This document shows, piece by piece, positions 9,073 through 26,654 of a stretch of DNA of 64,000 nucleotides. A program made the position numbers and the translations under genes. A model generated the notes under the pieces. That model searched no databases. It was not told the origin of the DNA and was given only the letters and a program-made list of their open reading frames with translations. Position 1 is the first letter of the stretch. The number at the start of each line of letters is the position of its first letter. This stretch comes from Clostridia bacterium (lineage in GTDB: Bacteria > Bacillota > Peptococcia > DRI-13 > UBA5745), in contig JAHDPO010000004.1 in NCBI GenBank assembly GCA_018434325.1, positions 1 through 64,000 on the forward strand, read 5' to 3'.

Positions 9073-9095
9073 GGCCTCACCTCTTTTATTATCGA

Positions 9096-9138
9096 CATAT
9101 GTCATTAACTATTTTACTCCTTTTCAGTCATATGTCAA
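9096..9138 (-). promoter_or_regulatory. Promoter and twin CATATGTCA operator of DUF134-Mrp operon
   Basis: On the minus strand TTGACA (9133-9138) and TAAAAT are 16 bases apart, a near-consensus sigma-A promoter. The sequence CATATGTCA occurs twice in direct orientation on the plus strand, at 9096-9104 and 9129-9137, start to start 33 bp (about three helical turns). One copy overlaps the -35, the other the start region. Such placement fits repression, most simply by the DUF134 protein itself. Confidence 0.6.
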
Positions 9139-9235
9139 TAATTAAAATGCTGAACAGGTAATATGCCTGTTGCGATGCAGAAAAACATGGTATTATTGAA
9201 AGTGCTTATGATGAAGCATAAGGGGGAGCTTTATT

Positions 9236-11041: not shown

Positions 11042-11107
11042 ACCCCTTGTTTTAGTTGTGCTGAGAATATCTTTATGCTAAAATCGGTACAATAAGAGGT
11101 GAACAAA

Positions 11108-12302: not shown

Positions 12303-12845
12303 ATGATGTTGAAAGCTACCATTGTCGGCGGATACAATACGCCCAGCAAAATGCTGCAGCGGAGGATTGGCGGCATTTTAAAAGATGTAGCCAGCGTAGA
12401 AATCTGCCTTTTTGATGAATTGGATAAAAACGAGTCCGATATTTACATTGCCTATTCTCACGGCATCAGGTATGAGAAGCTTCAGGAAAAATTTCGCAGT
12501 GAAAATAAAAAGCTGATCGCTGCCGAATTAACCCTTTTGCCAATCGGTATTCGTATGCTGAAGGCTATAAAAAAAGGCAGCCGGGTGGGAGTGGTGGCAG
12601 AGCATTTGCGGTGCGCCAACTACTTCTTGGGAGAAATTCTGAAAGCAGGCGTGCTTGACTATCATTTTGTAGCGGGCAAGATTACCGATATGAAAGGAAT
12701 GGATGTTGATATTTTTGCCATACCCGAAGAAATGCTTGACCTTGCCGAGACCGCCGTCCTGCAAGGAAAACAGGTCTTGCCTATTCCCCGCACCATAACC
12801 GCTTCCTGTTATGCCGATTTGATTAACGCCGCTATGGAAAATTAA
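12303..12845 (+). CDS. Unassigned protein, PrpR-N-like sensor domain without effector
   Basis: 180 residues, no family identified with certainty. Two alpha/beta halves are visible: SDIYIAYSHGIRYEKLQEK, KLIAAELTLLPIGIRMLKAI, KKGSRVGVVAEHLRCANYFL, and MDVDIFAIPEEMLDLAETA. This order (an 'is it there' strand, a retrieval strand ending in a gly-ser rich turn, then a GVV strand) resembles the N-terminal ligand-binding domain of PrpR-type sigma-54 activators, but no AAA+ or DNA-binding part is attached. No signal peptide. It precedes the leader RNA and organic-acid operon, so it may sense a pathway metabolite; that is inference. Confidence 0.5.
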   Translation: MMLKATIVGGYNTPSKMLQRRIGGILKDVASVEICLFDELDKNESDIYIAYSHGIRYEKLQEKFRSENKKLIAAELTLLPIGIRMLKAIKKGSRVGVVAEHLRCANYFLGEILKAGVLDYHFVAGKITDMKGMDVDIFAIPEEMLDLAETAVLQGKQVLPIPRTITASCYADLINAAMEN

Positions 12846-12854
12846 TTAGTAATA

Positions 12855-13049
12855 AATCTGCCGTATTTTTAATAAACATATGGTAAGGCGGCAAGTCAGG
12901 CTTAGGTTTCCTACAGTAGCGGTAGGACGCCAGGACTTGTTGGAAAAGCAGGAGCAAGGGTAATGAGATCATGAAAATTCTACAACTCGATAAATACGGG
13001 TAAGTGTGGAGCCTACATAAATAATTATTTATGTAGGTTTTTTATTTTT
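12855..13049 (+). ncRNA. Candidate structured leader RNA (riboswitch-like) before isochorismatase-tct-ubiD operon
   Basis: About 195 nt with several nested helices: CAAGTC (12892-12897) pairs with GACTTG (12934-12939), enclosing TCCTAC/GTAGGA (12909-12914 and 12922-12927). A second hairpin is CTACA (12980-12984) with TGTGG. The element ends in a 12-bp-plus palindromic stem CCTACATAAATAA/TTATTTATGTAGG and a long T tract. GTAGG of the upstream hairpin can pair with CCTAC of the terminator stem, a plausible antiterminator. I do not recognise a known riboswitch class. Confidence 0.45.
13012..13049 (+). terminator. Intrinsic terminator directly before hydrolase gene
   Basis: Perfect palindrome 13012-13037 followed by TTTTTTATTTTT. 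It ends only a few bases before the ribosome binding site GAAGGGAGA of the gene at 13066, so it must control or insulate that operon. Confidence 0.85.
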
Positions 13050-13065
13050 GAAGGGAGACAAGGGG

Positions 13066-13764
13066 ATGCGAGCCTGGGAAGCCGTTATCAGCGAAGAAGA
13101 GCGATTGGTCTATCAGCAAGCCGGCTATGGGACACAGCCGGTTCATTTAGGAAAAAAACCGGCTCTTCTGATTATAGACGTGACCCAATCCTTTACGGGA
13201 GGAGCCTCGCCGGAACAAGGGGAGGCTTATGCTACCGGCTGCCAGGGGGCCTGGGAAGCGGTGGCAGCCATCAAACAGCTTTTGAGCATCTGCCGCAGCA
13301 GGGGGATAACCATTGTATACACAACCGGGAATAGGCAGCAGGAAAAGTACTTTGGCGGAGCCACGATGCGGCCCCGCAGCCAAAGTGATCTTAACCCTGA
13401 AGGCGGCCTGATTCCCCCTTGTATTATGGCCCGGGAAGATGAGCTGGTGCTTAAAAAGAATAAAGCCAGCGCTTTTTTTGACACGCCCCTGGCCACCTAC
13501 TTTCACCGGCTGGGGATTGACAGCATTTTTGTGGCCGGCGCCGCTACTTCCGGCTGTGTCAGGGCTTCGGTGGTGGACGCCTTTTCTCATGGCTTTCAGC
13601 CGCTGGTGGTGGAAGAGGCTGCCTTCGACCGGTCCCGGACGTTACATCTGGCAAATCTGTTTGACATGAACGCCAAGTATGCTCATGTCATCACTTTGGA
13701 ACAGGCCGCTGCGCTGATTCTGGCATGGGATAAGTCCGGGGAGGTGGGAAGAGGGGGAAAATGA
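13066..13764 (+). CDS. Isochorismatase-family cysteine hydrolase
   Basis: 232 residues. The catalytic triad of the family is visible: Asp38 (LLIIDVTQSF), Lys133 (KKNKASAFF) and Cys164 (GAATSGCVRAS). The family includes nicotinamidases, N-carbamoylsarcosine amidases, maleamate amidases and isochorismatases; the sequence looks most like the amidase branch, but the substrate cannot be told. ATG 13066 has GAAGGGAGA seven bases upstream; a TTG at 13048 falls in the terminator tail. First gene of the operon with a tripartite organic-acid transporter and a UbiD-type decarboxylase, so it may open an amide or carbamoyl bond of the imported compound. Confidence 0.85.
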   Translation: MRAWEAVISEEERLVYQQAGYGTQPVHLGKKPALLIIDVTQSFTGGASPEQGEAYATGCQGAWEAVAAIKQLLSICRSRGITIVYTTGNRQQEKYFGGATMRPRSQSDLNPEGGLIPPCIMAREDELVLKKNKASAFFDTPLATYFHRLGIDSIFVAGAATSGCVRASVVDAFSHGFQPLVVEEAAFDRSRTLHLANLFDMNAKYAHVITLEQAAALILAWDKSGEVGRGGK

Positions 13765-13794
13765 AGCGTTCAATACCTGTGAAAAGGAGGGATA

Positions 13795-14250
13795 ATGATG
13801 GAGCCGGAACTGAGGAAAAAACTAGAGATAGGGTTTGCTTCGCTGATTTTTTTGTTCTTTGCGGTTTTCCTGATCGTTGGCGTAGCTTATCCGCCCAGGC
13901 CAAGGGAGCTGCCCCTGCTGGTCGATATTATCGGATTATTGCTAACCGGCAATATAATCTTTTCTGCCGTCAAAAAACCGGCAGGTTCCTATAAGCAGCC
14001 GGCGCGCCCCATGAATTGGCGGGCTGTCGGCCTGGGCTTTGGCAGCATGTTCCTCTACCTGATCTTCACCTATTTTGTCGGCATGGTGCTCTCCTCTTTT
14101 GTGATTGTCTATGGCTGCGGCCTGGCTTTCGGCGCCAAAAACAAAAAGACACTGGTTATTGTATCCCTGGCCTCGGTTGCGGTTGTATACCTGCTCTTCG
14201 GAATGCTGCTAAAAGTTAGCTTGTACCAGGGCATTCTTTTTGGAGGTTAA
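13795..14250 (+). CDS. Tripartite tricarboxylate transporter small subunit TctB
   Basis: 151 residues with four membrane helices (about 13-31, 42-58, 75-105, 118-148), the topology of TctB, the small membrane subunit of TTT transporters. AAAAGGAGGG lies just before the ATG. It follows the hydrolase by 30 bases and overlaps the ribosome binding site of tctA. Sequence is poorly conserved in this family, so the call leans on position before TctA and TctC. Confidence 0.85.
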   Translation: MMEPELRKKLEIGFASLIFLFFAVFLIVGVAYPPRPRELPLLVDIIGLLLTGNIIFSAVKKPAGSYKQPARPMNWRAVGLGFGSMFLYLIFTYFVGMVLSSFVIVYGCGLAFGAKNKKTLVIVSLASVAVVYLLFGMLLKVSLYQGILFGG

Positions 14251-14254
14251 GAAA

Positions 14255-15751
14255 ATGGAATCTGTTGTATGGCAAGGCTTGCTTGCATCTTTGGCTCCCA
14301 CTTCAATCCTAGCGGTTTTAATCGGCGTATTTGTCGGCATCGCCGTTGGTATTGTGCCGGGAATTGGCGCCGGCGTCGGGCTGTCTTTACTTTTGCCTAT
14401 CATATTCAACGTGCCGCCGCTGATTGGGCTCATGCTGCTTTTGGCTCTTTGGGCCTCTGACGGCTATGGCGCTTCTATTTCTTCGATTCTTTTAAACGTG
14501 CCCGGCGGGGCGGGGGCCGTGGCTACCTGCTTCGACGGCCACCCTATGGCCCAGCAGGGTAAGGCCGGTGAAGCCATAGGTATTTCTATGGCCGCTTCCA
14601 TGCTGGCCGGTATTCTGGGAACTTTCGTCTTAATGCTGGCGGCGCCGCCCCTGGCCAAACTGGCGGTGAAGATCGGGCCCGCTGAATACACCATTATGGC
14701 CGTATTAGGTATGACCCTGATCGGCGGTATGGCGGGAAAAAACAGGATCAAAGGCCTGGTTTCGGCTATTATCGGCTTAATGGTGAGCTTCATCGGCTAC
14801 GATCTGACCACCGGTTTTGTCCGCTATAACTTTGGCTCTACTTATTTATTTGACGGCATTGAGTTTGAATTGGTCCTGATCGGTTTCTTTGCCATAGGCG
14901 AGCTGATGCAAGCCGGTGAAGAGGGGGGCACGGTAGCCGAATTCGGCAAGATGACGGGTACTGTTTTGGGGGGATTTAAAGAAGCCCTGAAGCGTCCGCT
15001 GTCCATTATACGCTCCTCTTTAGTCGGCGTGGTGATGGGCGTGCTGCCGGGAATCGGCATTACCATTTCCAGCATGGCTGCTTATGAAGTGGAGAAAAGG
15101 TTCTCCAAAACGCCTGAAAAGTTTGGCACGGGAATAGTGGAAGGGATCATCGGTCCCGAGGCCGCCAACAACTCTTGCCAGCCGGCTGCTTTAATTCCCA
15201 CGCTGACCTTGGGTATTCCGGCCGGCAGCACCTCCGCCGTTTTTCTGGGGGCCCTGATCATGTACGGACTGACTCCCGGTATGGATCTTTTCACCAATAA
15301 GGCGCCGCTTGTTTGGGCCATGATGTGGGGCATTATCGTAGCCAGTATTGCTTATGTCCTGGTTGGTCTGATCTTTGCCAATTGGTTTGCCAAATTAACT
15401 ATTTTGCCTATTGAATATTTAGTTCCCTGCACGCTGGTTACCTGCTTTATCGGCGCCTTTGTTACGACGAACAGTTTCTACGACCTGGTGGTGGCCTTCC
15501 TGTTTGGCTTGATCGGTTACGTCATGGCCCTGCTTAAGTATCCTCCGGCGCCGGCGATTCTGGGCGTAGTGCTGGGCCCCATCCTTGAGAAAAACTACTT
15601 TCGGGCTTTACTTTTATCCGATGGTTCTCACCGGGTCTTTTTCAGCGGTACGCTGGCAATTTGCCTCTGGAGCTTGTTGGCGTTAATCCTTTTCGCACCT
15701 TTTCTTTTCAAACTATTCAAGAAGCGGAGAGGGATCAAAAGCTCTTCGTAA
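14255..15751 (+). CDS. Tripartite tricarboxylate transporter permease TctA
   Basis: 498-residue large permease with about 11-12 membrane helices. TctA landmarks: GIVPGIGAGVGLSLLLP near residue 35, YGASISSILLNVPG, ATCFDGHPMAQQGKAGEA and the second half repeat GVLPGIGITISS with EAANNSCQPAALIPTLTLG. ATG 14255 has GGAGG nine bases upstream. Together with TctB and TctC it should import a carboxylated compound with the ion gradient. Confidence 0.95.
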   Translation: MESVVWQGLLASLAPTSILAVLIGVFVGIAVGIVPGIGAGVGLSLLLPIIFNVPPLIGLMLLLALWASDGYGASISSILLNVPGGAGAVATCFDGHPMAQQGKAGEAIGISMAASMLAGILGTFVLMLAAPPLAKLAVKIGPAEYTIMAVLGMTLIGGMAGKNRIKGLVSAIIGLMVSFIGYDLTTGFVRYNFGSTYLFDGIEFELVLIGFFAIGELMQAGEEGGTVAEFGKMTGTVLGGFKEALKRPLSIIRSSLVGVVMGVLPGIGITISSMAAYEVEKRFSKTPEKFGTGIVEGIIGPEAANNSCQPAALIPTLTLGIPAGSTSAVFLGALIMYGLTPGMDLFTNKAPLVWAMMWGIIVASIAYVLVGLIFANWFAKLTILPIEYLVPCTLVTCFIGAFVTTNSFYDLVVAFLFGLIGYVMALLKYPPAPAILGVVLGPILEKNYFRALLLSDGSHRVFFSGTLAICLWSLLALILFAPFLFKLFKKRRGIKSSS

Positions 15752-15793
15752 TCTCTGGTTTTCCCCAATAAATTAAGCAGGAGGAGAGAAATC

Positions 15794-16819
15794 ATGAGGA
15801 AATACGCTTGGCGGAAGGTTTTGGCCATGGTTTTGGTTATCATCATGCCTCTGACCCTGGTTGGCTGCGGTGATAACAGCGCCAAAAACACCGAAAATTA
15901 TCCTGAGAAGAGCATTACCGTTATCGTCGGCTTCAATCCCGGCGGCGGTGTGGATACAGCTGTCCGGGGCATCCAACCCTATCTTCAGAAGTATATCGGC
16001 AAAACGATCCTTGTCGAAAACAAACCGGGCAACCAGGGGCTTATCGCCATGAACTATGTAGGCGAGCAAAAGCCTGACGGTTACACCCTGATTGCTACAA
16101 CAAACGCCATGAGCCTTAACGCCATGATCTTTCCGGAATCCTATAAGCTGAAGGCCGCTCCCGAAGAAGCGCTGATTCCTATTTACAGCTGGGTCAACGG
16201 CGACGGCAACGGCATCTTTGTTTCCAAAGAATCCCCCGTTAAGACCTGGGATGATCTGGTTGCCAAGGCGCAAACAGAGGCCGGGGTCAAGATTGCCGGC
16301 TCCGGCATAGGATCCACCGATCACATTACAGCCATCACCCTCACTAAGATCTATGGTGGCAATTGGGTCTTCGTGCCCATGGACAGTGCCGGCGAAGTAG
16401 CTTCCGCCGTATTGGGCGGCCAGGTGGACGCCGGCAGCAGTTCTCCGGGAGCCGCCAGCCTGGATCCAAGCCGGATCAATATGCTTGCCGTTACCCTGAA
16501 GGAGAGGGCTGAGAAATGGCCCGATGCGCCGACATTTATTGAGCTGGAAAAACCGGAACTCTATATCTTATTTGTGGTTGGCCTGATGGCTCCTGCGGGA
16601 ACGCCGCCGGAAATCATCGACAAGCTGGAAGCGGCCATGGATCAAGCCCGCAATGACCAGGCTTTCATTGACTGGGCCGAAAATGCCAAGCAGCCCATTG
16701 GCAAAGAGGGCTGGAATGCCGAAGCTTACAAGGCCTATTTGACGGATTACCAAAATAACATGAAGGCTCTGATTCCCGACATTCAGGAGGCGCTTAAAGC
16801 CGCTCAAGGCGGGAAATAG
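15794..16819 (+). CDS. Tripartite tricarboxylate transporter substrate-binding lipoprotein TctC
   Basis: 341 residues. A lipoprotein signal with lipobox LVGC (Cys25) is followed by the Bug-family fold: YPEKSITVIVGFNPGGGVD, VENKPGNQGLIAMNYV and the LMAPAGTPPEII motif. The GGG loop and the PGN region form the carboxylate-binding bridge in studied relatives. Anchored outside the membrane, it delivers substrate to TctA/TctB. AGGAGGAGAG precedes the ATG. Confidence 0.94.
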   Translation: MRKYAWRKVLAMVLVIIMPLTLVGCGDNSAKNTENYPEKSITVIVGFNPGGGVDTAVRGIQPYLQKYIGKTILVENKPGNQGLIAMNYVGEQKPDGYTLIATTNAMSLNAMIFPESYKLKAAPEEALIPIYSWVNGDGNGIFVSKESPVKTWDDLVAKAQTEAGVKIAGSGIGSTDHITAITLTKIYGGNWVFVPMDSAGEVASAVLGGQVDAGSSSPGAASLDPSRINMLAVTLKERAEKWPDAPTFIELEKPELYILFVVGLMAPAGTPPEIIDKLEAAMDQARNDQAFIDWAENAKQPIGKEGWNAEAYKAYLTDYQNNMKALIPDIQEALKAAQGGK

Positions 16820-16867
16820 CCTATTTATGATCAAATTCATGATCAAAAACGGAAAGGAGTTATGGAG

Positions 16868-18280
16868 ATGCCAAGAGATTTAAGAACATTTCTGAAAGAG
16901 CTGGAAGAGGCCAATGAGATAGTCGCTATCAATAAAGAGGTTGATCCTTTGAAGAACCTGGGCGGTTTGGCCTGGCAGGGTGAAAATAAGCTGGGGAAAG
17001 CCACGTTTTTCACGAATTTAACCGGCTTTCCCGGCTGGCGGGCCGTCAGCTATGCCGACGCCAGCCGTAAACGGCTTTCTATGGCGGTGGATACCAGTCC
17101 CCGCGATTTTATCCCGACAATGAATGAAATGCTGAAAAAAGGCCCTACCAAAAAACAATTGGTTGCCTCCGGCCCCGTGCAGGAAGTGGTCAAAATCGGG
17201 GCTGAAGCCAACCTTTATGATTTGCCTATCCATATCATGTCGAATCTGGACGCCGGCCAATATATGGGCGGAGCTATGGCGATAATCAGGGATCCGGAAA
17301 CGGGGATCCAGAACGTATCCTTGCACCGTCATCAGGTCAAGGGTAAAGACCGCCTTGGGGTTTTGATCCATCCGGGCCGCCACATGGATATGATCTACCA
17401 AAAATATGAGGCAAAGAATGAGAAAATGCCTATTGCGCTGGTTATTGGGCACCATGCCACCTATTATTTGACCTGCTGCTGGACCTTCCCCTTCGGCGTG
17501 GATGAATTTGAAATGGCCGGAACATTTTTGGGCGAACCGGTGCGCACGGTAAAAGGCAAGACGGTGGATCTGGAGGTGCCGGCTGATGCGGAAATCGTTA
17601 TCGAGGGCTATATGCTGCCCCATGTCCGGGAAGAGGAGGGGCCTTTTGCCGAGCATACCGGATACGCCAGAGCCGGCGCCGGACTTAACCCGGTAATCGA
17701 AGTGACCGCCATCACCCGCAGAAGCGACGCTATCTATTATGCCCTTCAAGGCGGCAAGCCGATTGCCTCCTCACAGATACTGGACGGACTGCCCATGGAA
17801 GTCGTTATTTACAACCGGGTCAAAGACGTAGGCGGCTTTGTGGATATTAAAGACGTTGTAGCCATCCCCTGTGCCGGCGGCAGCCATATTATCGTTGTGC
17901 AGATTACGCCGAAAATCCAGGGGGAGGCTAAAGACGTGGCGATGGCCGTGCTTTCCAGCACCTATCTCCATCCGAAAATTGCTATCGTTGTGGATGACGA
18001 TATTGATCCCCATGATAACAAGGAGCTGATTTGGTCTTTGTCAACCCGGGTCAATCCGGAAAGAGATGTGTTCATCGTCGGCGGTACCCACGGCCATCAT
18101 CTTGATGCTTCCCTGCCTTTGCTGACTCCTCCGGGAACCCATCCGCAAATCCGCAGGGGTTCCAAAATGGGCATCGATGCGACAAAGCCGCCCCTTACGG
18201 AACCGGAGGCCCGGGATCACTTTACCAGAAGCCATGCCATGGGATCAGATATATATGATATCAACGATTTCTTAAAATAG
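16868..18280 (+). CDS. UbiD-family (de)carboxylase
   Basis: 470 residues, a usual UbiD length. Recognisable features: PRDLRTFLKELEEANEI at the start, LPIHIMSNLDAGQY, HRHQVKGKDRLGV, and HVREEEGPFAEHTGYA carrying the Glu-Arg-Glu acid/base network that acts with prenylated FMN. The second ATG (16868) is eight bases from AAAGGAG and is preferred over ATG 16862. Such enzymes reversibly decarboxylate aromatic, heteroaromatic or unsaturated acids. No UbiX prenyltransferase is in the window, so the cofactor must come from elsewhere. Last gene of the hydrolase-tct operon; the transported acid is the likely substrate. Confidence 0.92.
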   Translation: MPRDLRTFLKELEEANEIVAINKEVDPLKNLGGLAWQGENKLGKATFFTNLTGFPGWRAVSYADASRKRLSMAVDTSPRDFIPTMNEMLKKGPTKKQLVASGPVQEVVKIGAEANLYDLPIHIMSNLDAGQYMGGAMAIIRDPETGIQNVSLHRHQVKGKDRLGVLIHPGRHMDMIYQKYEAKNEKMPIALVIGHHATYYLTCCWTFPFGVDEFEMAGTFLGEPVRTVKGKTVDLEVPADAEIVIEGYMLPHVREEEGPFAEHTGYARAGAGLNPVIEVTAITRRSDAIYYALQGGKPIASSQILDGLPMEVVIYNRVKDVGGFVDIKDVVAIPCAGGSHIIVVQITPKIQGEAKDVAMAVLSSTYLHPKIAIVVDDDIDPHDNKELIWSLSTRVNPERDVFIVGGTHGHHLDASLPLLTPPGTHPQIRRGSKMGIDATKPPLTEPEARDHFTRSHAMGSDIYDINDFLK

Positions 18281-19250
18281 CCGAGTCTTTAAAAACTCTG
18301 TAGGAATAATCCTGGCAGCGGTATTGCAGCAGAGGGGCCAGTGTCCGCAGCAGCAGATTAACGATCCTATAACGGCTGAAGGCGGCCATGTAGCGTTTTT
18401 CAATCCGGCAGCCCAGCTTGCACTTGAGATCTTCCGCCGTTTGGCCGAAGTCAATGCTGCGGCAGCCTTTTTCGATACCGAGCCGGATGATGGCAAGCAG
18501 CATATTGCAGTACAAATCAAAGCGGTCCCTTTGGGCATAATCCATTCCTCCAAAGAGAAAGTGCAGATCTTCGCCATACTGGGATAGGCAAAAAAAGGCC
18601 ACTTGTGCATCGCCATGATAAAAGGCATAAAGCTCGCCTGCGATTTCCTGAAAAAATTCCTTCTTCAGCATTTCCAAAGGGTATTGGGAGCGGCTCAGCA
18701 CATTTAAATAGAGACGGTGGGTTTCGTCGGAAAACTCCCGGGGGGTGATGCGCTTTAATTGAAGCTCGCCCCCCTTTTCTAAAGCGGTTTTGGCCCGGCG
18801 CCGATAGCCGCTGCGCAGACAGTCCAGATATTCCGCAAAGCTGGCAAAGCGATTGGGGAAGATACAGGCTCCAAGGGTTTCGCCGCTGGCGATTCCTTTG
18901 GGCAGAGACTCCCGGGGCAGCAGATTTAAGAGCAGGAACAGTCCTGCTCTTTTTTGATAATCGGCAATCAGCTCCTGAATGTTGCCGCTGTAGCCGGGCA
19001 TATCCAAAGAAGCGGGCAGCCCCACCACCGTCATGGGGATTTCCAGACGAAGCCCGCCAAAGGTAAAGAGATTGAGCTTGGTTTTATATTCGCAGCAGAT
19101 ATACGACCGATGGGTGACGTAAGAAAAAGGGGTATCGGAGTGCCGCGCCGCATTTAAAACAGCGGAATGCAGGAAGGGGTTGCCGCCTGTCTGCTCGTCC
19201 CAATGGGGCGGGCAGGTATTATGGCGTTTGCCCAGAAAGGTTTTTTTCAT
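18261..19250 (-). CDS. FemAB/GNAT-like acyltransferase, last gene of radical SAM cluster
   Basis: About 329 residues resembling FemAB-like or BioF2-type acetyltransferase proteins: YRRRAKTALEKGGELQLKRI, a core with AQVAFFCLSQYGEDLHFLFGG, and YCNMLLAIIRLGIEKGCRSI followed by DFGQTAEDLKCKLG, a pattern seen in peptide- or sugar-modifying acyltransferases. ATG 19250 is used; a TTG at 19259 is possible. The start overlaps the end of the preceding gene by 32 bases. Its end overlaps the end of the convergent ubiD-like gene by 20 bases. Substrate unknown; context suggests a step in making or attaching the cluster product. Confidence 0.65.
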   Translation of the reverse strand: MKKTFLGKRHNTCPPHWDEQTGGNPFLHSAVLNAARHSDTPFSYVTHRSYICCEYKTKLNLFTFGGLRLEIPMTVVGLPASLDMPGYSGNIQELIADYQKRAGLFLLLNLLPRESLPKGIASGETLGACIFPNRFASFAEYLDCLRSGYRRRAKTALEKGGELQLKRITPREFSDETHRLYLNVLSRSQYPLEMLKKEFFQEIAGELYAFYHGDAQVAFFCLSQYGEDLHFLFGGMDYAQRDRFDLYCNMLLAIIRLGIEKGCRSIDFGQTAEDLKCKLGCRIEKRYMAAFSRYRIVNLLLRTLAPLLQYRCQDYSYRVFKDSAILRNR

Positions 19251-20301
19251 AAACAACAAAACTTCCGCCTTTGCTTTTGGTATAGCGCTTTGTAAAAAGG
19301 CTGGATTTGGTATTGGTATCGATGATCCAGCTGCTGATTATGGTTTTGATGTCCGGATAATTTTTGAGGGCCGTATTCATTGCCTGCTGAAAGGCCAGGG
19401 TGACCACGCCCTTATTTTGATATGCCGGCAAAACGCCGATTTCCGCCATTTTTACTCTTGCGGGGCTGAAGCGAAGATGACGCTTCACTGCCGAGAGGAT
19501 GCCGAATCCGCGGCCCGGGCGGACCAGCTCGTTAAAGTCGGGATAATAAAACACCAGCCCGATATCGGTTTGCCCCTCCTTAATGAAAAGCAGGGCTCCC
19601 CGGTCAAGAATCAGTTTCATTTGACCGAGAAGCTCGGCGTCTTCCTGATACTCTCTTTTAAAATAAAAATCATGGCACTCAAAGATGGTGTTGGAAAGGT
19701 CGGTGTAGCGCTTGAGATTGCGGTCGTTGATCCTGGCCGGCTCAAAGCTGTATTGGGGACAGCGGCCGATAATTCGTGAGCAGTCATCGTCAATACGCTG
19801 CCGTACCAAGGAGGCTTCATCCTGAAAGCAGCTGAGCCTGACTTCGGAAAAGCCGCTAAAATAGCCGGCGTAATAGGAGGGGTTGTAGCTTTCGCCAAAG
19901 CTGGGCGGAGCGGTATTTTCCAGGGAAAAACCCAGGGAGTAATTGAGGTGGCCATCCATGCCCGCCACAAGCCTGGTGCATTTTTCCGCAGCAGCCCAAA
20001 TCTCCGCATATTCCAGCATGTGTGCCACTGCCTCACCGCTGTCGGGCAGGGCTTCAAAAAAAGCGATATTGGCGGCAGCGCCGGCATTTTTGTGGTGAAT
20101 CAGCACACACTGGCAAAGCCTTTTGCCGTTGTGGACAACGGCGATGATTTCCTGCCGGGAGTTTTGATAAAAACTGCTGCGCCGCCCGCAAACCAGAGGC
20201 AGCAGGCTGGACTTATTGTCCTTAAAACCAGGGTCTTTTCCGTACACAGAGGGGTAAAAGCTCCTGAGCTCCTCGGCGGAGCCCAATTTGATCATTTCCA
20301 T
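19219..20301 (-). CDS. GNAT-like acyltransferase in radical SAM cluster
   Basis: 360 residues, probably a double or extended GNAT fold. Middle part has AAAEKCTRLVAGMDGHLNYSLG; the C-terminal part VKMAEIGVLPAYQNKGVVTLAFQQAMN is the acetyl-CoA loop (QNKGV) and the following helix of GNAT enzymes. The residues SSWIIDTNTKSSLFTKRY close the fold. It starts 9 bases after the neighbouring radical SAM gene. No signal peptide or membrane helix. The acyl group and acceptor are unknown. Confidence 0.65.
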   Translation of the reverse strand: MEMIKLGSAEELRSFYPSVYGKDPGFKDNKSSLLPLVCGRRSSFYQNSRQEIIAVVHNGKRLCQCVLIHHKNAGAAANIAFFEALPDSGEAVAHMLEYAEIWAAAEKCTRLVAGMDGHLNYSLGFSLENTAPPSFGESYNPSYYAGYFSGFSEVRLSCFQDEASLVRQRIDDDCSRIIGRCPQYSFEPARINDRNLKRYTDLSNTIFECHDFYFKREYQEDAELLGQMKLILDRGALLFIKEGQTDIGLVFYYPDFNELVRPGRGFGILSAVKRHLRFSPARVKMAEIGVLPAYQNKGVVTLAFQQAMNTALKNYPDIKTIISSWIIDTNTKSSLFTKRYTKSKGGSFVVYEKNLSGQTP

Positions 20302-20310
20302 ATTGCCATC

Positions 20311-21621
20311 CTAAATAATATTTGGTGTGATGCCCCTGTCGATCTGATATTTATAATAGAAATTCACGTAGAGGTAAAAGAGATATTTCAAGGGGTGTCT
20401 TAAAAAGTCTTTCCGCAGCAGGGTGCGCCGGAAAATCCCGCTTACGGTAAATACCTGCTTGTACAGGCGCCAATATGCCCCCGTCAGCTCACGGGGGGAC
20501 ATGTGTTTCGGCTGGTGCACCGCCTCCGTGCCGTTGTAGCTGTAAATATCATCGTTGACAATCCGGCCCTGCTCCAGCATCTGGTGATAGAATGCAGTGC
20601 CGGGGATGGGGGTCAGAATGTAAAATCGGGGAACAGTGATTTTATTGCGGATAATGAAAGCCCCGGTCATGGCGATGCTCTCCGGCGTATCGCCGTCAGC
20701 GCCGACCACCATCTCGGTGGAAACGTCGATGCCCGCACGGGTTATCTGCCGGATCTGCTGATCGTAGCGGTCTGCCTTGGCCCAGCTCTTTTGCATGGCG
20801 TCAAGGCTCTCCTGGGAGATGCTTTCCACCCCGAAGGAGAGGGTGATGCAGCCGCTGCGGCGCAGGATGACCAGAAGCTCCCGGTCGTCGGCCACGCTGA
20901 TGGAACATTGGGACATCCATTGCATGCCCAGGCTCTCGATCTCGCGGCAAAGCTGGATGATATACTGCCTGTCGGCCAGGATATTGTCGTCAAGCAAGAG
21001 GAATTTTTTATAGCCCAACCGCTTGACTTCTTTGATATCGCGGATTACCTCTGCGATCTCCCGGCGCAGGTAGCGGTTTTTATAAAGGCAGTAGACCGAA
21101 CAGAAGCTGCAGGAATTGGGACAGCCTCGCCCCGCCTGCACCGGCAGAAAGTCGCCGATTCTTTTGGAGGTCAAGAGGTCATAGCGGGGCAGCGGCCAGG
21201 AGAGTGTCTCCAGGGGCATATCATAAACCGGCTTCAATGTGCCCCTGCGGTAATCCCCAATCATCGCCTTGAAGCTTTCCTCGCCGTCACCGATGATGAC
21301 GCTGTCACAGTATTTTTTCGCTTCCTCAGGCATCAGGCTCACCATGTATCCGCCCATAACCACCGTCTTGCCCCGGCGCTTAAATTCCTTGGCAAGATCG
21401 ATGCTGCGGATGACGGCGTGTCCCATAGAGGAAATGGCGATCAGATCGGCGTCGGTTTCAAAATCCACATCTTCAATGGTCTCGAAGCAGGCCTCAAATT
21501 GAAGGCCGGGAACGAGGACCGCCAGAATCGCCGGAGCCAGCCCCGCAAAATAGAGCCGCTTTTTTTTAATCAGCTTCTTCCCATCATAATAAGGGGTAGG
21601 CTGAATAAACAGTATTTTCAT
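20311..21621 (-). CDS. B12-domain radical SAM protein 3
   Basis: 436 residues. The N-terminal 150 residues form a cobalamin-binding-type Rossmann domain (MKILFIQPTPYYDGKK ... TVVMGGYMVSLMPEEAKKY, VIIGDGEE). It lacks an obvious DxHxxG, so B12 may bind base-off without His or not at all. The radical SAM cluster CxxxCxxC is at Cys167, Cys171, Cys174 (GRGCPNSCSFC). The segment LLLDDNILADRQY and SFGVESISQESLD are typical of the B12-radical SAM class that includes methyltransferases and ring-forming enzymes. Directly abuts the next radical SAM gene upstream (stop and start adjoin). Confidence 0.85.
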   Translation of the reverse strand: MKILFIQPTPYYDGKKLIKKKRLYFAGLAPAILAVLVPGLQFEACFETIEDVDFETDADLIAISSMGHAVIRSIDLAKEFKRRGKTVVMGGYMVSLMPEEAKKYCDSVIIGDGEESFKAMIGDYRRGTLKPVYDMPLETLSWPLPRYDLLTSKRIGDFLPVQAGRGCPNSCSFCSVYCLYKNRYLRREIAEVIRDIKEVKRLGYKKFLLLDDNILADRQYIIQLCREIESLGMQWMSQCSISVADDRELLVILRRSGCITLSFGVESISQESLDAMQKSWAKADRYDQQIRQITRAGIDVSTEMVVGADGDTPESIAMTGAFIIRNKITVPRFYILTPIPGTAFYHQMLEQGRIVNDDIYSYNGTEAVHQPKHMSPRELTGAYWRLYKQVFTVSGIFRRTLLRKDFLRHPLKYLFYLYVNFYYKYQIDRGITPNII

Positions 21622-22998
21622 TCAACGCCCCTCAATCTTGCGGGTGAGATAGTCCATGAGCATGTTCTTGTAGAAGGCAAGATCCATAAAATCATAAATT
21701 CCGGCCTTGTTTGCCATTTTATAGAGACGCAGAAACAGCCGGCGGTACTCTCTGTAAAACTCCCGGCGGGAGAGCTTAGCGGGCTCCACAACAAGATGCA
21801 AAAAGTCCCAGTCGACAATGTCCGTTGAGGTGATGCGGTCCTTGTGTTCTTCGTAAAGAGGGGTTCCCGGAATCGGGGTGAAAATGGATACGGTGACATA
21901 GGTGAGACCTGCTTTGGCGATCCAGTTGTAGAGGTTTTCAAAGTAGGCTTTGTCGGCGTCAAGGGGAGCGATCATCAGGGCAATGCACTGGGCCGGCGTT
22001 TCCCGGATGATTTCCACACAGCGCCGGTTCATGTCCACGCTGGTTTTTTTGTTCATGCCTGCCAGTTCGGCGTCGGTGACTGCCTCCAGCCCTACCAGAA
22101 AATAGTGAAATCCGATTTCAGTGAGAGCCCGGACGATATCCGGGTTTTCGCAGATGAAATCGGCCCTGGCATAGCAGATATAGGTTTTTTTGATCTGCCT
22201 TTCCTTTATAAGGGCAATAAACCGCCACAGCCGCTTGGGGTCCACAAGGAAGTCGTCGTCCACAATTTGAATATGCTCCGCATCAATGCCGGCAAGCTCC
22301 TCGATGACCAGATCAAGGTCCCTGGGCTGATAGCTGCCGCCTCCCAACAAGGTGCAGTAACAAAAATTGCAGCTGTAAGGACACGAGAAAGCGGTCTTGA
22401 TGGAAGCGACCTCGGTTAGCTCCAGATAACGGAAGTGCTGTCGGTTGGCATAAAAGAAGCTGCGGTCGGGGATGGGCAGGCTGTTGATGTCCACGGGACT
22501 CAGGGGATTTTCCTGATACTCCCCGTTTACTCGATAGCAAAGCCCGTTGATGCCGCCAAGCTCATTGATACCGTCCAGCCCCAGTCCGTCCTTTGTCCGG
22601 CCCTGGCCCACAAGAGACACAAGCCTTGCGTAATCCGCCGGGGATTCGCTGCGAAAGACATAGTCGACGTAATCACCGTAAAAGCTTCTGTAGTTAAGCT
22701 GGGCGTGAACGCCGCCCACAATGGTTACCGTTTGGGGATTGTATTTCTTGGCCAGCTCGCAGAAGCCGATCATCAGGTTCTGCTGGGTGATATAGCCCGT
22801 CACGGAAAGGACGTCGGGCCGCTCCCGCTTCAGGGTCTCCTCAAAGTCATTGCGGATCAGCCCGTCAAAAATTACGCTGGCGATGCCTTTTTCTTTAAGG
22901 GCCGTATATATATATTCCAGATCCAAGGGCTCGTTTTCCAAAATCTTGGTAAAACTCAGCAGATTTGGGGCTTGGGGCCGTACCAAAAGCACCTTCAT
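21622..22998 (-). CDS. B12-domain radical SAM protein 2
   Basis: 458 residues; N-terminal B12-binding-type domain (MKVLLVRPQAPNLLSF, VTIVGGVHAQLNYRSF) and radical SAM core with CPYSCNFC (CxxxCxxC). The stretches IQIVDDDFLVDPKRL, ICYARADFICENPDIV and FFTPIPGTPLYEE-like IFTPIPGTPLYEEHKD are family landmarks. ATG 22998 has AAGGA about nine bases upstream; the frame runs further left without a good start. About 45% visibly similar in layout to the neighbour at 23034, suggesting gene duplication (by eye). Reaction unknown. Confidence 0.85.
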   Translation of the reverse strand: MKVLLVRPQAPNLLSFTKILENEPLDLEYIYTALKEKGIASVIFDGLIRNDFEETLKRERPDVLSVTGYITQQNLMIGFCELAKKYNPQTVTIVGGVHAQLNYRSFYGDYVDYVFRSESPADYARLVSLVGQGRTKDGLGLDGINELGGINGLCYRVNGEYQENPLSPVDINSLPIPDRSFFYANRQHFRYLELTEVASIKTAFSCPYSCNFCYCTLLGGGSYQPRDLDLVIEELAGIDAEHIQIVDDDFLVDPKRLWRFIALIKERQIKKTYICYARADFICENPDIVRALTEIGFHYFLVGLEAVTDAELAGMNKKTSVDMNRRCVEIIRETPAQCIALMIAPLDADKAYFENLYNWIAKAGLTYVTVSIFTPIPGTPLYEEHKDRITSTDIVDWDFLHLVVEPAKLSRREFYREYRRLFLRLYKMANKAGIYDFMDLAFYKNMLMDYLTRKIEGR

Positions 22999-23033
22999 GG
23001 TCTCTTTTCCTTCATAAACAAAACTCTCATCGG

Positions 23034-24311
23034 TTACCCCTTTATGATTTTTTTCAGATACTGCCTGGTGATGTGAAGTGCGCCAAAAGACAGCTTGCAG
23101 GTAGTGACAACACCGTATTTGCGAAACATGTAGAGGGTATTGCCGGGCGTCACCGTGATCTTGTAATAGAGGGCCAGGATATTCCAATAATACCTGCGTA
23201 AGCTCATGCCCGTGGGGCAGATGACCAGATGGGCCATATCCCATTTTTCGTGTTCGGCGTAGGGAATCAGCAGGGAGTCTTTATATTCTTCGAAATAAGG
23301 AGTGCCCGGCATGGGGGTAAAGGGCTGAAGATTGACGAAGACCAGCCGGTTTTCTTTGATAAACCGGTAAAGCCGGCGGAAGTTTTCCACTTGCCAATCC
23401 ACGCCCAGAATGACGGTGGCATAGCATTCGATATCGTGCTTTCTCAGAATGCGAATTGCCTCGCTGCTTTGGGCTACCTGGGATTTTTTATTGTAGGAGT
23501 CAAGCTCCTCCTGGCTGGCGGCTTCAATTCCCACGATAACGGCCGCAAGGCCGATTTCCCGCAGCTTGATGATAATATCTTCGTTTTCGGCGATGAAATC
23601 AGCCCGGCCGTAAACGAGATAGTTTTTGCGGATGCCCTGCTCTTTGACCTGGCTGTAAAACTCCAGCAGCCGTGCCCGGTTAAACAGGAAATTGTCGTCA
23701 ACAATGTAGACTTCCCGCTGGGGGATGGACAAAAGCTCCCGGATAACCTGGTCCACCGGCCGGGCGGCGTAAGGCGCGATCTCCTTGCAAAAGCAGAAAT
23801 TGCAGCTGTAGGGGCAGCCAAAGGACGTCTTAATCAAGGCGCAGTCCTGCTGAAAAAGATAGTAGTAGCGACCGGCATATTCCTTCGCCACTTCTCGGTC
23901 GGGCAGGAATTCCCCCTGCAATTCGCAGCCCAGGCGGTCGTACAAATCCCGGTCCTTGCGGCAGACATAGTCGATGGAGGGGTGAGAAAAATCTTCGGGA
24001 CAGACAGAAGCGTGAACGCCTCCCACGAAAACCTGAGCTTCGGGACATATCTTTTTTGCGGCGTCGGCGTATTCTTTGATGACGCCGATATGGCTGATAT
24101 AACCGGAAATGCACATAGCCTCCGGCGAAAAATGCCGCAGATGATCTTCCAGGGGTTTTTGTTCCAGTATCATATCCGCAAGCTTAATCTCATGACCGTT
24201 GCTTTTCAGCACCGCCGCCAGCTGCATCAGCTCAAGGGGCTCGCAGATCATGACGCTTTGCAGGCCGATGGTCTCTTCGTGGGGCCGGGGCCTTACCAGC
24301 AATATTTTCAT
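23034..24311 (-). CDS. B12-domain radical SAM protein 1
   Basis: 425 residues. B12-type domain (MKILLVRPRPHEETIG, VFVGGVHASVCPEDFSHPS) followed by radical SAM core with CPYSCNFC, VYIVDDNFLFNRARL, LVYGRADFIAEN and PFTPMPGTPYFEEYK. Clear paralogue of the gene at 21622 by the same order of motifs. ATG 24311 is ten bases from AAAGGA; a TTG nine bases earlier would be too close to it. Second gene of the minus-strand cluster, 19 bases after the methyltransferase. Substrate unknown. Confidence 0.85.
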   Translation of the reverse strand: MKILLVRPRPHEETIGLQSVMICEPLELMQLAAVLKSNGHEIKLADMILEQKPLEDHLRHFSPEAMCISGYISHIGVIKEYADAAKKICPEAQVFVGGVHASVCPEDFSHPSIDYVCRKDRDLYDRLGCELQGEFLPDREVAKEYAGRYYYLFQQDCALIKTSFGCPYSCNFCFCKEIAPYAARPVDQVIRELLSIPQREVYIVDDNFLFNRARLLEFYSQVKEQGIRKNYLVYGRADFIAENEDIIIKLREIGLAAVIVGIEAASQEELDSYNKKSQVAQSSEAIRILRKHDIECYATVILGVDWQVENFRRLYRFIKENRLVFVNLQPFTPMPGTPYFEEYKDSLLIPYAEHEKWDMAHLVICPTGMSLRRYYWNILALYYKITVTPGNTLYMFRKYGVVTTCKLSFGALHITRQYLKKIIKG

Positions 24312-24330
24312 TGTTTCCAATCCTTTAGCC

Positions 24331-24954
24331 TTATGGCATATCCTTTAGCTTCATCACGTATCCGCAAATGGAGGGCATAAACCACTTTTCTTTGACAGCG
24401 AATTCTTCCACCGGGCAAAGCCGATCCGCGGTAAGCCTCAGGAAGTCTTTTCTTGAAAGATATTCCGCTTTTTCCGCTGTTTTCTCAATAAAATACATGA
24501 CAATCCCATCGTAAAGATGGTTGACGGAGGCCTGAACGAAAAATAAGACGGTTTGTTCGGACATTAGTCCGGTGATTTTATGGATGATCTCCTGCTTATT
24601 TTCGTAATAAGGCAGAGAGTGGGTGCAAGCAATCACATCGAAAGCGCCCCGGCTGATTTCTGCCGGAAGGGGAGCGGAAATATCCAGTGTATAAAATTCT
24701 GCATTTAAGTTTTTGGCCTTCGCCGCTGTGATCATGGCCTTTGATTTATCGATTCCGATACACTGAACCTCTGGGTCGGCAGCAAGAACGTCGGCAATCA
24801 GCTGGCCGGTGCCGCAGCCAATGTCCAGAAGGCGCTTGGCTTTCAATGCCCGGATGCGGCGCAGCAACTCCCTGCGGGTGGGTTCGAGGGAATACTTCTG
24901 AACCCAGAGCTTATCATACTTTGCCGCCAATGTGTCCCATATCAAATAACTCAC
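24331..24954 (-). CDS. Class I SAM-dependent methyltransferase
   Basis: 207 residues. Motif I LLDIGCGTGQL, the acidic end of strand 2 IGIDKSKAM, motif DVIACTHSLPYY at the post-II position and a lid-like C-terminal part. No N-terminal signal. GTG 24954 is the only plausible start; the ribosome binding site is weak (GATGGCGG next to it). First gene of the six-gene minus-strand cluster. Methyl acceptor unknown; a small molecule is more likely than RNA or protein from the compact size, but this is inference. Confidence 0.8.
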   Translation of the reverse strand: MSYLIWDTLAAKYDKLWVQKYSLEPTRRELLRRIRALKAKRLLDIGCGTGQLIADVLAADPEVQCIGIDKSKAMITAAKAKNLNAEFYTLDISAPLPAEISRGAFDVIACTHSLPYYENKQEIIHKITGLMSEQTVLFFVQASVNHLYDGIVMYFIEKTAEKAEYLSRKDFLRLTADRLCPVEEFAVKEKWFMPSICGYVMKLKDMP

Positions 24955-24977
24955 CCGCCATCATCGTAATTATTTCA

Positions 24978-25018
24978 TTATATCAAGATGAGGATGCCTT
25001 GGCTAGGCTAGTCTAGCC
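24978..25018 (-). promoter_or_regulatory. Candidate promoter and operator of radical SAM cluster
   Basis: On the minus strand a perfect TATAAT lies near 24978-24983, about 25 bases before the first gene. No good -35 is present at 17 bases; instead an inverted repeat GGCTAG-N6-CTAGCC (25001-25018) occupies that place. A missing -35 with a palindrome there suits an activator-dependent promoter. Confidence 0.4.
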
Positions 25019-25074: not shown

Positions 25075-25234
25075 AGGACACTGAAAATGAGCAAAATTGC
25101 AAGTTTAAAGTGTCCTACTTCTTCAGAATAGGGGCATCTCCTGACTGCGACACTAAATACATCCAAATATAGTCAAATATAGCTAAAGTCAGCTGCTAGG
25201 TGATGTTTCAGGCACTTTAAACTTGCAATTTTGC
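25075..25234. repeat. Intergenic inverted-repeat block
   Basis: A perfect 22-bp inverted repeat, 25091-25112 and 25213-25234, arms containing GCAAAATTGCAAGTTTAAAG, separated by 100 bases. A second, nested inverted repeat AGGACACT/AGTGTCCT (25075-25082 and 25109-25116) shares the left arm, so two mutually exclusive folds are possible. The spacer has no coding frame. It could be a decayed small insertion element or a structured RNA in the gap between the serpin gene and the radical SAM cluster. Confidence 0.6.
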
Positions 25235-25298
25235 GTAAAAGACTGAAGCTTGAGCGAATTTTTCAGCGCCTTCCTAGGACGGCACCCTTTGGTACGGT

Positions 25299-26549
25299 TT
25301 AGCCCACAGCGTTTAATACACCCATAAAAATCGGCAGACTAAACTGGTTATCCACGATCATGAAGAAGAAGGGGCGGTCCAGGTTGACTCTCTTAGGCTC
25401 TGCCGGAGCGGCAGACGAACCAGACATCTCTACGGCAGTAACGGCGCCTGCTTTTGTGCCTTTTTCGTCCACCTCGATTTTCGTCTTATGAATAACACGG
25501 CTTATAAAGATATTGCCATCGCTCAGCTGACCAAGGGAGCTGAAATCCGCAAGCTCCCCATCAAAAGCATCCTTTATACCAAGATCCTGCAATATTTTGG
25601 AAAGCTCCTTACTATATTCAAAGGAAAATTTAGGCATAGAGGCATATACCTGGTCACCTCTTTGATTTCTAACGGCGTCAATCAGCGCTTTGCCGTCAAT
25701 TGAGGCGATAAAATCCGATACTGCAAGTCCCTGATCGGGCAATAAGGCCACAAAGGAATATTGATTATCGGCGTAAGGCTTTGAAAAGCCGATGGCTCCC
25801 GGCATCTCAATATAGCCGTATTCAGTGCTGTGCAGGAAGTCAACCGTCTTTTTATCACCGTTTTGCGCAGTGAATTCGCCCCGGCGCACAGAAGTATTTT
25901 TGTAGATATTCAGCCACTCGGCGTCAAAAGACAGCGCATTGATAAGGTACATTACCGCATCTGCGGGAGGTTTTTCCTCTAAAAGCTTTTTAATCTGCCC
26001 GCCAGTTTTTTCATTTACCCAGGCATTAATGTCATTTTTCGTGCCGTCGTCAAAAGGAGCTTGATAAACCTCGGCGTCGTAATAGTCCTTGTTTTTCTGC
26101 AAAAACTCCTTTTTTATCTGTAAACTCTCTTGATCCTTAAACCAAATGGAATTGGCAAGGCTCACCTTATATTTGTCGGCAGTGGGGAGATAAGCTTTAT
26201 AGGCATAGAGGTATTCGTTCAGACTGCTGATATCAGCGCCGAAAATCTTTTCCATTTGGGACAGCGTTTCTCTGTCCGCACCATTTGCCGTCATCGATAG
26301 GGCGGAAATGATAGAGAGCGGAGAGATAAGCGTGTTTTTGCCCTCATGGATTTTTTCGAAAATAGCCAGGGAAAAGTCAGCAATTGCCGTTGTTTTATCC
26401 GCATTACTTTCCCGGGAGCTGTCAATGACGATGGGAGCGATGTTATTGCTGTCAACACCTGTCATTAAGTTGGTGGCCGCCAAATTTGCAGTGCCGCTGC
26501 AAGCTGTCAATGTTAGCAGCAACACAAGCGGCAGAATAGCTTTCTTCAT
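25299..26549 (-). CDS. Serpin-family protease inhibitor, lipoprotein
   Basis: 416 residues. Lipoprotein signal ending TACSG; full serpin fold with NTLISPLSIISALSMTANGA, LANSIWFKDQ, VMYLINALSFDAEWLN, the hinge and reactive loop EKGTKAGAVTAVEMSGSSAA and the C-terminal DRPFFFMIVDNQ...PIFMGVLN. The hinge (small residues at P12-P9, Thr at P14) fits an inhibitory serpin. Counting from the hinge Glu as P17, P1-P1' falls at Ser-Ser, suggesting an elastase-like or cysteine protease target (inference). ATG 26549 follows GAGGAGGTG. Outside-facing on the membrane, single gene. Confidence 0.93.
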   Translation of the reverse strand: MKKAILPLVLLLTLTACSGTANLAATNLMTGVDSNNIAPIVIDSSRESNADKTTAIADFSLAIFEKIHEGKNTLISPLSIISALSMTANGADRETLSQMEKIFGADISSLNEYLYAYKAYLPTADKYKVSLANSIWFKDQESLQIKKEFLQKNKDYYDAEVYQAPFDDGTKNDINAWVNEKTGGQIKKLLEEKPPADAVMYLINALSFDAEWLNIYKNTSVRRGEFTAQNGDKKTVDFLHSTEYGYIEMPGAIGFSKPYADNQYSFVALLPDQGLAVSDFIASIDGKALIDAVRNQRGDQVYASMPKFSFEYSKELSKILQDLGIKDAFDGELADFSSLGQLSDGNIFISRVIHKTKIEVDEKGTKAGAVTAVEMSGSSAAPAEPKRVNLDRPFFFMIVDNQFSLPIFMGVLNAVG

Positions 26550-26654
26550 ATACAACACCTCCTCATGATTAAGACGATAATTCTTGCTAAATGTTCCGTA
26601 TCTGGTCAGCTAAAGAGGCGCCTCAAAAAAATGAAGCGCCCAAGTACTATTGCA

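Follow-up and report, generated by a model that had tools for sequence, protein, structure and literature searches.

The window analysed here, a stretch of 64,000 nucleotides from contig JAHDPO010000004.1 of an anaerobic Clostridia bacterium, contains an operon of six minus-strand genes. Each gene is open at the coordinates listed below, and the successive gaps from MT through rS1, rS2, rS3 and GNAT to FemAB are 19, 35, 0, 9 and −32 nt, in agreement with the first-pass annotation, which had described a tightly packed minus-strand cluster whose gaps range from −32 to +35 nt. The count of six genes holds in the window but describes only one version of the locus, as MT and rS2 are accessory and differ among loci.

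24331..24954, minus strand: MT, SAM-dependent class I methyltransferase (Pfam Methyltransf_31, 54.6 bits); accessory
23034..24311, minus strand: rS1, B12-binding radical SAM protein, HpnR-like; core
21622..22998, minus strand: rS2, B12-binding radical SAM protein, paralogue of rS1; variable gene
20311..21621, minus strand: rS3, B12-binding radical SAM protein from a distinct family with strong conservation; core
19219..20301, minus strand: GNAT, predicted N-acyltransferase with a tandem-GNAT fold, assigned from sequence and a structural model to the YghO / CC_1154 (bacterial ceramide synthase) family; core
18261..19250, minus strand: FemAB-like acyl/aminoacyl transferase (Acetyltransf_6, PF13480, 36.5 bits); core
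24977..25005, minus strand: promoter-like site TAGCCA-17-TATAAT with TG before the −10, from a consensus scan only

The MT reading frame could begin at GTG 24954 or at ATG 24939, and the −10-like TATAAT (24982-24977) is situated just upstream of it. The promoter-like site is a possible but weak candidate for the operon promoter because such sites are fewer than in shuffled sequence. A 144-bp inverted-repeat element upstream of the operon was set aside as a dispersed repeat.

The three radical SAM proteins belong to the B12-binding radical SAM superfamily, and their use of cobalamin is predicted from their domains. Pfam B12-binding domains are present in rS1, rS2 and rS3 at 61.1, 42.8 and 39.8 bits (cut-off 32.1), together with Radical_SAM domains at 50.7, 41.7 and 60.4 bits (cut-off 29.5). 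The CxxxCxxC motif reads CPYSCNFC in both rS1 and rS2 and CPNSCSFC in rS3, and is found in all 109 radical SAM proteins from the window and its relatives; the cobalamin-ligand motif DxHxxG is absent from the first 140 residues of every one of these 109 proteins. The window genome contains four cobalamin riboswitches. The tandem paralogues proposed earlier are indeed related, with rS1 and rS2 sharing 40% identity across the radical SAM part, and rS3 proved to be of the same class by its two domains and is ∼25% identical to rS1. Across 25 rS3 orthologues, including those of Bacteroidota, 74 positions are invariant, and the mean column identity across phyla is 63%. PDB matches of the rS3 profile include AprD4, CysS, TokK, MiaB and RimO, and none is named a tetraether synthase. 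Viral carriage was rejected, as one close-relative scan of IMG/VR returned no rS3 relative.

The presence of a methyltransferase and FemAB/GNAT-like enzymes, also part of the earlier description, is borne out by Pfam, with the GNAT match of 21.2 bits lying barely above the cut-off. Escherichia coli YghO, however, matches the GNAT family profile along almost its entire length, at 204 bits, and reaches 92 bits when the profile is built from Clostridia alone, and the predicted model of GNAT (pLDDT 92) adopts a tandem GNAT fold that also matches FemX and L-PGS at lower rank. GNAT is a near full-length homologue of YghO and a predicted YghO/CerS-like N-acyltransferase. The yghO gene has been grouped with CC_1154, the N-acyltransferase required for ceramide formation in Caulobacter (PMC9386255; also PMC11324152), although the ceramide N-acyltransferase role of YghO itself is only proposed. 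Stand-alone YghO-type homologues adjoin housekeeping genes in loci L056-L058, so the family is broader than the operon and membership in it does not fix the substrate. The FemAB-like protein is likewise modelled with pLDDT 92 as a tandem-GNAT fold resembling FemX and MprF; its nearest folds in Foldseek are Sbb17, the aminoacyl-PG synthases L-PGS and A-PGS (MprF), and FemX, with TM scores of about 0.5-0.56. Because these neighbours are aminoacyl-tRNA transferases, the FemAB step may be an aminoacylation. Against PDB sequences, the FemAB-like profile matches FemX alone, at a non-significant E=0.29, and no useful PDB sequence relative was found for either GNAT or the FemAB-like protein. MT is a generic class I methyltransferase, with no NCBIfam equivalog above cut-off, that usually directly precedes rS1; it occurs in many relatives but was not found in L019, L021, L026, L028, L031 and L036-L046.

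At least seven Bacillota families share a core of GNAT, FemAB, rS1 and rS3 set among differing neighbours, and more distant versions occur in five other phyla; the core is kept in every Bacillota locus complete enough to judge. Orthologues of rS3 (>490 bits, next match 392) and of FemAB (>370 bits, next match 64) have identical distributions: both are confined to one set of 8 among 398 Bacillota genomes, about 2% of the sample. Named carriers are Acetivibrio mesophilus, A. alkalicellulosi, Petrocella sp. FN5 and Sedimentibacter hydroxybenzoicus. Copies of rS2 type number from zero to three in the relatives, and each locus holds two to five radical SAM genes in all. The separation of genes in relatives that would have spoken against a pathway was not seen for the core genes, and conservation of the unit across phyla shows that the cluster does not reflect chance. 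In the non-Bacillota loci rS1 and rS3 are only about 37-40% identical, and their product may differ from that of the Clostridia.

Genes of lipid type accompany the core in several relatives. Six Lachnospiraceae loci contain an acyl-AMP ligase and an acyl carrier protein (ACP), neither of which is linked to the window operon. Loci L097 and L098 each encode a FeeM-like N-acyl amino acid synthase (43-48 bits, cut-off 27) and a phosphatidylserine decarboxylase (Psd) homologue (155-158 bits, cut-off 22), a pair that is also present in L054. An alpha-oxoamine synthase is found in five of the six non-Bacillota loci, some of which add a YegS/DAGK-type lipid kinase, an SDR, a P450 or a desaturase. For the C-terminal half of a fusion in L045 an acyl-ACP-reductase-like identity was considered and not confirmed. 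The window genome yielded no match to alpha-oxoamine synthase, which rules out an ordinary sphingolipid pathway in this organism and indicates that the product is not an ordinary ceramide; the matches in G091 and G009 adjoin Tdh-like and Bio-type genes.

The operon matches no known cluster and is undescribed: literature searches returned no published account of the gene combination, and none of the genes matched an NCBIfam equivalog. The best NCBIfam match of both rS1 and rS2 is the hopanoid C-3 methylase HpnR, whose B12-binding radical SAM architecture they share, but the scores of rS1, rS2 and rS3 (148.7, 155.9 and 55.3 bits) are far from the equivalog cut-off of 650, and squalene-hopene cyclase (PF13243), detected in two control genomes, is absent from the window genome; a hopanoid assignment was therefore rejected. 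A bacteriochlorophyll assignment was rejected on BchE scores of 128.5, 118.5 and 84.1 bits (cut-off 481.35), and a ladderane assignment on scores of 50.7, 45.2 and 80.9 bits (cut-off 360) against TIGR04072, a ladderane-associated B12 radical SAM family named for lipid biosynthesis, to which rS3 comes closest. Caulobacter ceramide synthesis (spt, cerR, cerS CC_1154, acpR, aasR) is resembled in the YghO/CerS-family GNAT of the operon, in the ACP and acyl-AMP ligase of the Lachnospiraceae versions, and in the alpha-oxoamine synthase and SDR of the non-Bacillota versions. It differs in that the window genome has no alpha-oxoamine synthase and in that at least two B12-radical SAM enzymes and a FemAB-like protein, all outside the five ceramide genes, are obligatory here. 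FeeM clusters share a FeeM-family gene with the relatives noted above, but FeeM is absent from the window operon and the B12 radical SAM core is additional. The likeness of the FemAB-like protein to MprF and FemX lies in the overall fold; no significant sequence similarity emerged from the profile search, and an MprF-type membrane domain is absent.

The best-supported frame remains that of the first-pass annotation, an unknown small molecule or lipid modification involving cobalamin-type radical chemistry; this chemistry is predicted, and the lipid half is sharpened by the YghO/CerS-like GNAT and the lipid-type neighbours. We give an even chance to a reading in which the operon builds a ceramide-like lipid, or an amphiphile of lipid type, that carries an amide-linked N-acyl group and has its hydrocarbon part altered by cobalamin radical SAM chemistry. 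The lipid reading draws on the GNAT assignment and on the ACP, acyl ligase, FeeM, Psd, alpha-oxoamine synthase and lipid kinase of the relatives, and C-methylation of the lipid on the scores of rS1 and rS2 against HpnR, a lipid C-methylase. The cell would supply a fatty acyl thioester, in Lachnospiraceae by means of the dedicated acyl-AMP ligase and ACP. GNAT would move the acyl chain onto an amine, and the FemAB-like protein would attach a second acyl or aminoacyl group. The HpnR-like rS1 and rS2 would then C-methylate unactivated sp3 carbons of the chain, rS3 would perform a further obligatory radical step, and MT would cap a polar group, probably a carboxylate or amine. Evidence for a lipid is indirect for the window operon itself, where the direct observations concern gene content, conservation, co-occurrence, the family relationship of GNAT and the cofactor domains; we infer the lipid nature of the product, its amide linkage, and both the sequence and the kind of all the reactions.

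A secreted natural product, for instance a signal or antibiotic of the N-acyl amide or N-acyl amino acid type, would be a soluble amphiphile with several radical C-methylations and not a membrane lipid. The family name of the FeeM-like synthases, the variation in the number of radical SAM copies, which is typical of tailoring, and the patchy distribution among Bacillota are all consistent with such a product, but the core is not accompanied by any conserved exporter, NRPS/PKS or resistance gene, the strong conservation of rS3 is unusual for a fast-evolving product, and the Psd homologue, lipid kinase and alpha-oxoamine synthase favour a lipid; we consider this alternative somewhat unlikely. 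Alternatively, the FemAB-like protein could act as an aminoacyl-tRNA-dependent transferase that, like MprF, aminoacylates a lipid; GNAT would then N-acylate the amino acid, and that aminoacyl-lipid would be modified by the radical SAM enzymes. This scheme is a variant of the preferred reading with aminoacyl-tRNA as the source of the amine. It would account for the lack of an alpha-oxoamine synthase in the window genome, and it agrees with the nearest folds of the FemAB model. Fold similarity of this kind is, however, common to the whole tandem-GNAT superfamily, GNAT included, and the sequence profile offers only the FemX match; we consider the variant unlikely.

Lipid-tail coupling by radical SAM enzymes has precedent (PMC9433317, PMC11186832, PMC8941075), and rS1 and rS3 could in principle join two hydrocarbon chains into a membrane-spanning or tail-cross-linked lipid, as do Tes and Gms in archaea or the reported bacterial Mss (PMC13274423). 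We regard this as improbable, since the highest scores of rS1 and rS2 among the NCBIfam models are those against the methylase HpnR and against BchE, and since Mss, together with Ger, has been reported across numerous Clostridia families (PMC13274423), compared with the small fraction of sampled Bacillota genomes that carry the core. Maturation of a RiPP or other peptide by B12-radical SAM enzymes is very improbable: rS3 does share sequence with ApyD-type RiPP radical SAM proteins, but its 87 bits are far under the ApyD cut-off of 750, and no peptidase or transporter is conserved. A RiPP cluster was rejected because a search out to 1.5 kb from 40 loci found no conserved, precursor-type small open frame apart from ACP and the shadows of longer genes.

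Returning to the amide-linked lipid, the recurrence of the four-gene core in distant phyla, often adjoining lipid-making genes, may mark a lipid class yet unreported. We tentatively suggest a class of amide-linked membrane lipids whose synthesis would do without serine palmitoyltransferase in Clostridia and would employ an alpha-oxoamine synthase in the distant phyla. Their chains would be modified by an obligatory pair of cobalamin radical SAM enzymes, rS1 and rS3; these two, the CerS-like and the FemAB-like proteins would constitute a single module that about six phyla share and combine with exchangeable genes for supplying the amine. A lipid substrate is known for few B12-radical SAM enzymes, and the greater part of the superfamily has yet to be characterised. 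A module of four genes that crosses phyla, with perfect co-occurrence of rS3 and FemAB and named carrier strains, gives direct experimental access to a new class of lipids and to the compounds on which new radical SAM families act. If the proposal is true, it would extend ceramide-type N-acyltransferases to anaerobes that have no serine palmitoyltransferase.

Six genes lie on the minus strand of the window, with the coordinates and tight packing described in the first-pass annotation (gaps of -32 to +35 nt):

24954-24331, minus strand: class I methyltransferase (MT), first in transcription order
24311-23034, minus strand: B12-binding radical SAM protein rS1, 19 nt after MT
22998-21622, minus strand: B12-binding radical SAM protein rS2, 35 nt after rS1
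21621-20311, minus strand: B12-binding radical SAM protein rS3, 0 nt after rS2
20301-19219, minus strand: tandem-GNAT YghO-type N-acyltransferase (GNAT), 9 nt after rS3
19250-18261, minus strand: FemAB-like (Acetyltransf_6, PF13480) transferase (FemAB), last gene, -32 nt relative to GNAT
25299-26558: serpin-like gene, upstream border (identity read from the translation)
16862-18280: UbiD-type decarboxylase gene, convergent, overlapping the final codons of the operon (identity read from the translation)

B12-binding and Radical_SAM domains score above the Pfam cut-offs in all three radical SAM proteins; rS1 and rS2 are indeed paralogues, as had been suspected (40% identity), and rS3 is more distant (25%). 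The serpin-like (protease inhibitor) gene directly upstream has a lipoprotein-like start and is also kept in the sister species (loci L018/L059). Between it and the operon, a non-coding element (25080-25245) carries perfect 22-nt terminal inverted repeats (25091-25112 / 25213-25234); it recurs at ~40 places with 72-87% identity on many contigs of the genome and looks like a MITE-type dispersed family. From their translations, the genes at 12303-18280 (UbiD-type decarboxylase, tripartite tricarboxylate transporter-like genes, isochorismatase-like hydrolase and AroM-like small protein) look like a cluster for carboxylate uptake and catabolism, and 11099-12124, likewise judged from its translation, looks like a DUF1016/YhcG-like predicted nuclease gene.

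A scan of genome contigs with rS1 as query gave 32 loci, with which, together with stretches from further genomes, the six proteins were compared by tblastn. GNAT, FemAB, rS1 and rS3 are constant in every Bacillota locus not cut by a contig end, so that the frequent separation in relatives that would have spoken against a cluster is not seen for these four. MT and rS2-type genes vary in presence, and other flanking genes are mostly unrelated from locus to locus. The exact order MT-rS1-rS2-rS3-GNAT-FemAB recurs in the sister species (82-95% identity) and in Acetivibrio alkalicellulosi (L020), as well as in MAGs from Clostridiaceae (L022) and Family XIII (L025); L036-L040 contain the four core genes only. 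The same families occur, where contigs are long enough, in Calditrichota, Gemmatimonadota, Planctomycetota, Bacteroidota and the ANGP1 group, with rS1 and rS3 ~37-40% identical and GNAT divergent; no FemAB was seen in L042 and L046. When 109 radical SAM proteins are placed in one tree, rS3 forms a clade (support 100) with one protein per locus; rS1 and the rS2-type proteins each fall into several clades, and there is a second HpnR-like clade.

Profiles for rS3 (A3) and FemAB (A1) were run against the same draw of 398 Bacillota genomes. Each detected eight, at 496-757 bits for rS3 (next score 392, another family) and 374-417 bits for FemAB (next score 64), and the eight are identical (G000, G023, G029, G055, G091, G123, G139 and G315; seven families). 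By hand calculation the chance of this is ~1 in 10^16, assuming independent genomes; these are not independent, but they are scattered.

No known cluster, hopanoid and bacteriochlorophyll included, was matched, all NCBIfam scores being far under the cut-offs. For rS1/rS2/rS3, HpnR gave 148.7/155.9/55.3 bits (cut-off 650), BchE 128.5/118.5/84.1 (481) and ladderane TIGR04072 50.7/45.2/80.9 (360); ApyD gave <=87 (750). Squalene-hopene cyclase was not found in the organism's own genome. We found no description of this gene combination in the open-access papers searched. The operon is real and undescribed, wide but sparse in distribution, a new combination of known enzyme families.

GNAT is a YghO-family protein: nearly all of E. 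coli YghO (L062:14044-15216) aligns with the GNAT profile, at 204 bits for the full profile and 92 for one of Clostridial members only, and the FemAB profile does not match YghO. yghO (ECD_02850) has been listed beside Caulobacter CC_1154, an acyl-CoA N-acyltransferase needed for dihydroceramide synthesis (PMC9386255) and named CerS (PMC11324152). The relation is at family level, because stand-alone YghO-type GNATs (365-380 aa; L056-L058, several Bacillota) adjoin housekeeping genes. Canonical ceramide is excluded in the window organism, since no alpha-oxoamine synthase was found in its genome (98% complete), unless the gene sits in the missing 2%. Matches in two other genomes, one next to a Tdh-like gene (L103) and the other next to Bio-type genes (L104), resemble Kbl and BioF. 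The organism's genome has one PF13480 protein, one YghO-type GNAT, one phosphatidylserine decarboxylase (elsewhere than the operon) and four cobalamin riboswitches.

Several relatives carry lipid-type neighbours. In Lachnospiraceae, the loci L026-L031 open with genes for an AMP-binding acyl ligase and an acyl carrier protein, a pairing reminiscent of AasR/AcpR in Caulobacter (PMC9386255); L097 and L098 have an inserted FeeM-family gene and phosphatidylserine decarboxylase homologue, a pair also present, judged by sequence start, in L054. An alpha-oxoamine synthase immediately follows rS1 in L041-L044 and L046, some also with SDR, YegS/DAGK-type lipid kinase and P450-like genes; it scores under every equivalog cut-off (bioF, 381.6 of 426; SPT, 329 of 640). 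In L045, a fatty acid desaturase and a P450-like gene accompany an aminotransferase fusion. The fusion (7977-10544, 856 aa, Cryomorphaceae MAG), a class III aminotransferase with a Rossmann reductase-like domain beside the rS1/rS3 genes, is a possible fatty-amine former. In L026, from a Lachnospiraceae MAG, NifH-like and NifD-like nitrogenase-family genes (16966-18982, from translations) directly follow the operon.

The proposed small-molecule or lipid modification with radical chemistry stands, narrowed by the YghO-type GNAT and the lipid-type neighbours to an amide-lipid hypothesis; we consider the chances that the product is an N-acyl (amide) lipid to be about even. GNAT and FemAB would assemble it, rS1/rS2 would perform radical C-methylation, rS3 an additional obligatory radical step, and MT may add a methyl cap. 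A soluble N-acyl natural product is conceivable, if on the unlikely side. Both structural models are confident (pLDDT 92, pTM 0.90): GNAT is a tandem GNAT, best matching glucosamine acetyltransferase, clavulanate tandem GNAT and mycothiol synthase, with N-myristoyltransferase lower, and FemAB lies nearest Sbb17, L-PGS/A-PGS (MprF) and FemX (TM ~0.5-0.56). An aminoacyl-tRNA-dependent step by the modeled FemAB is therefore possible; a tRNA-dependent route to an aminoacyl-lipid, with which these neighbors would agree, we judge unlikely. Tail coupling seems very unlikely, and a RiPP, for which a precursor-type small ORF would be expected and none is conserved within 1.5 kb of 40 loci, highly improbable. 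Under the amide-lipid reading, the core probably does the same chemistry on related amide lipids, because it is constant while the amine- and acyl-supplying genes differ by lineage.
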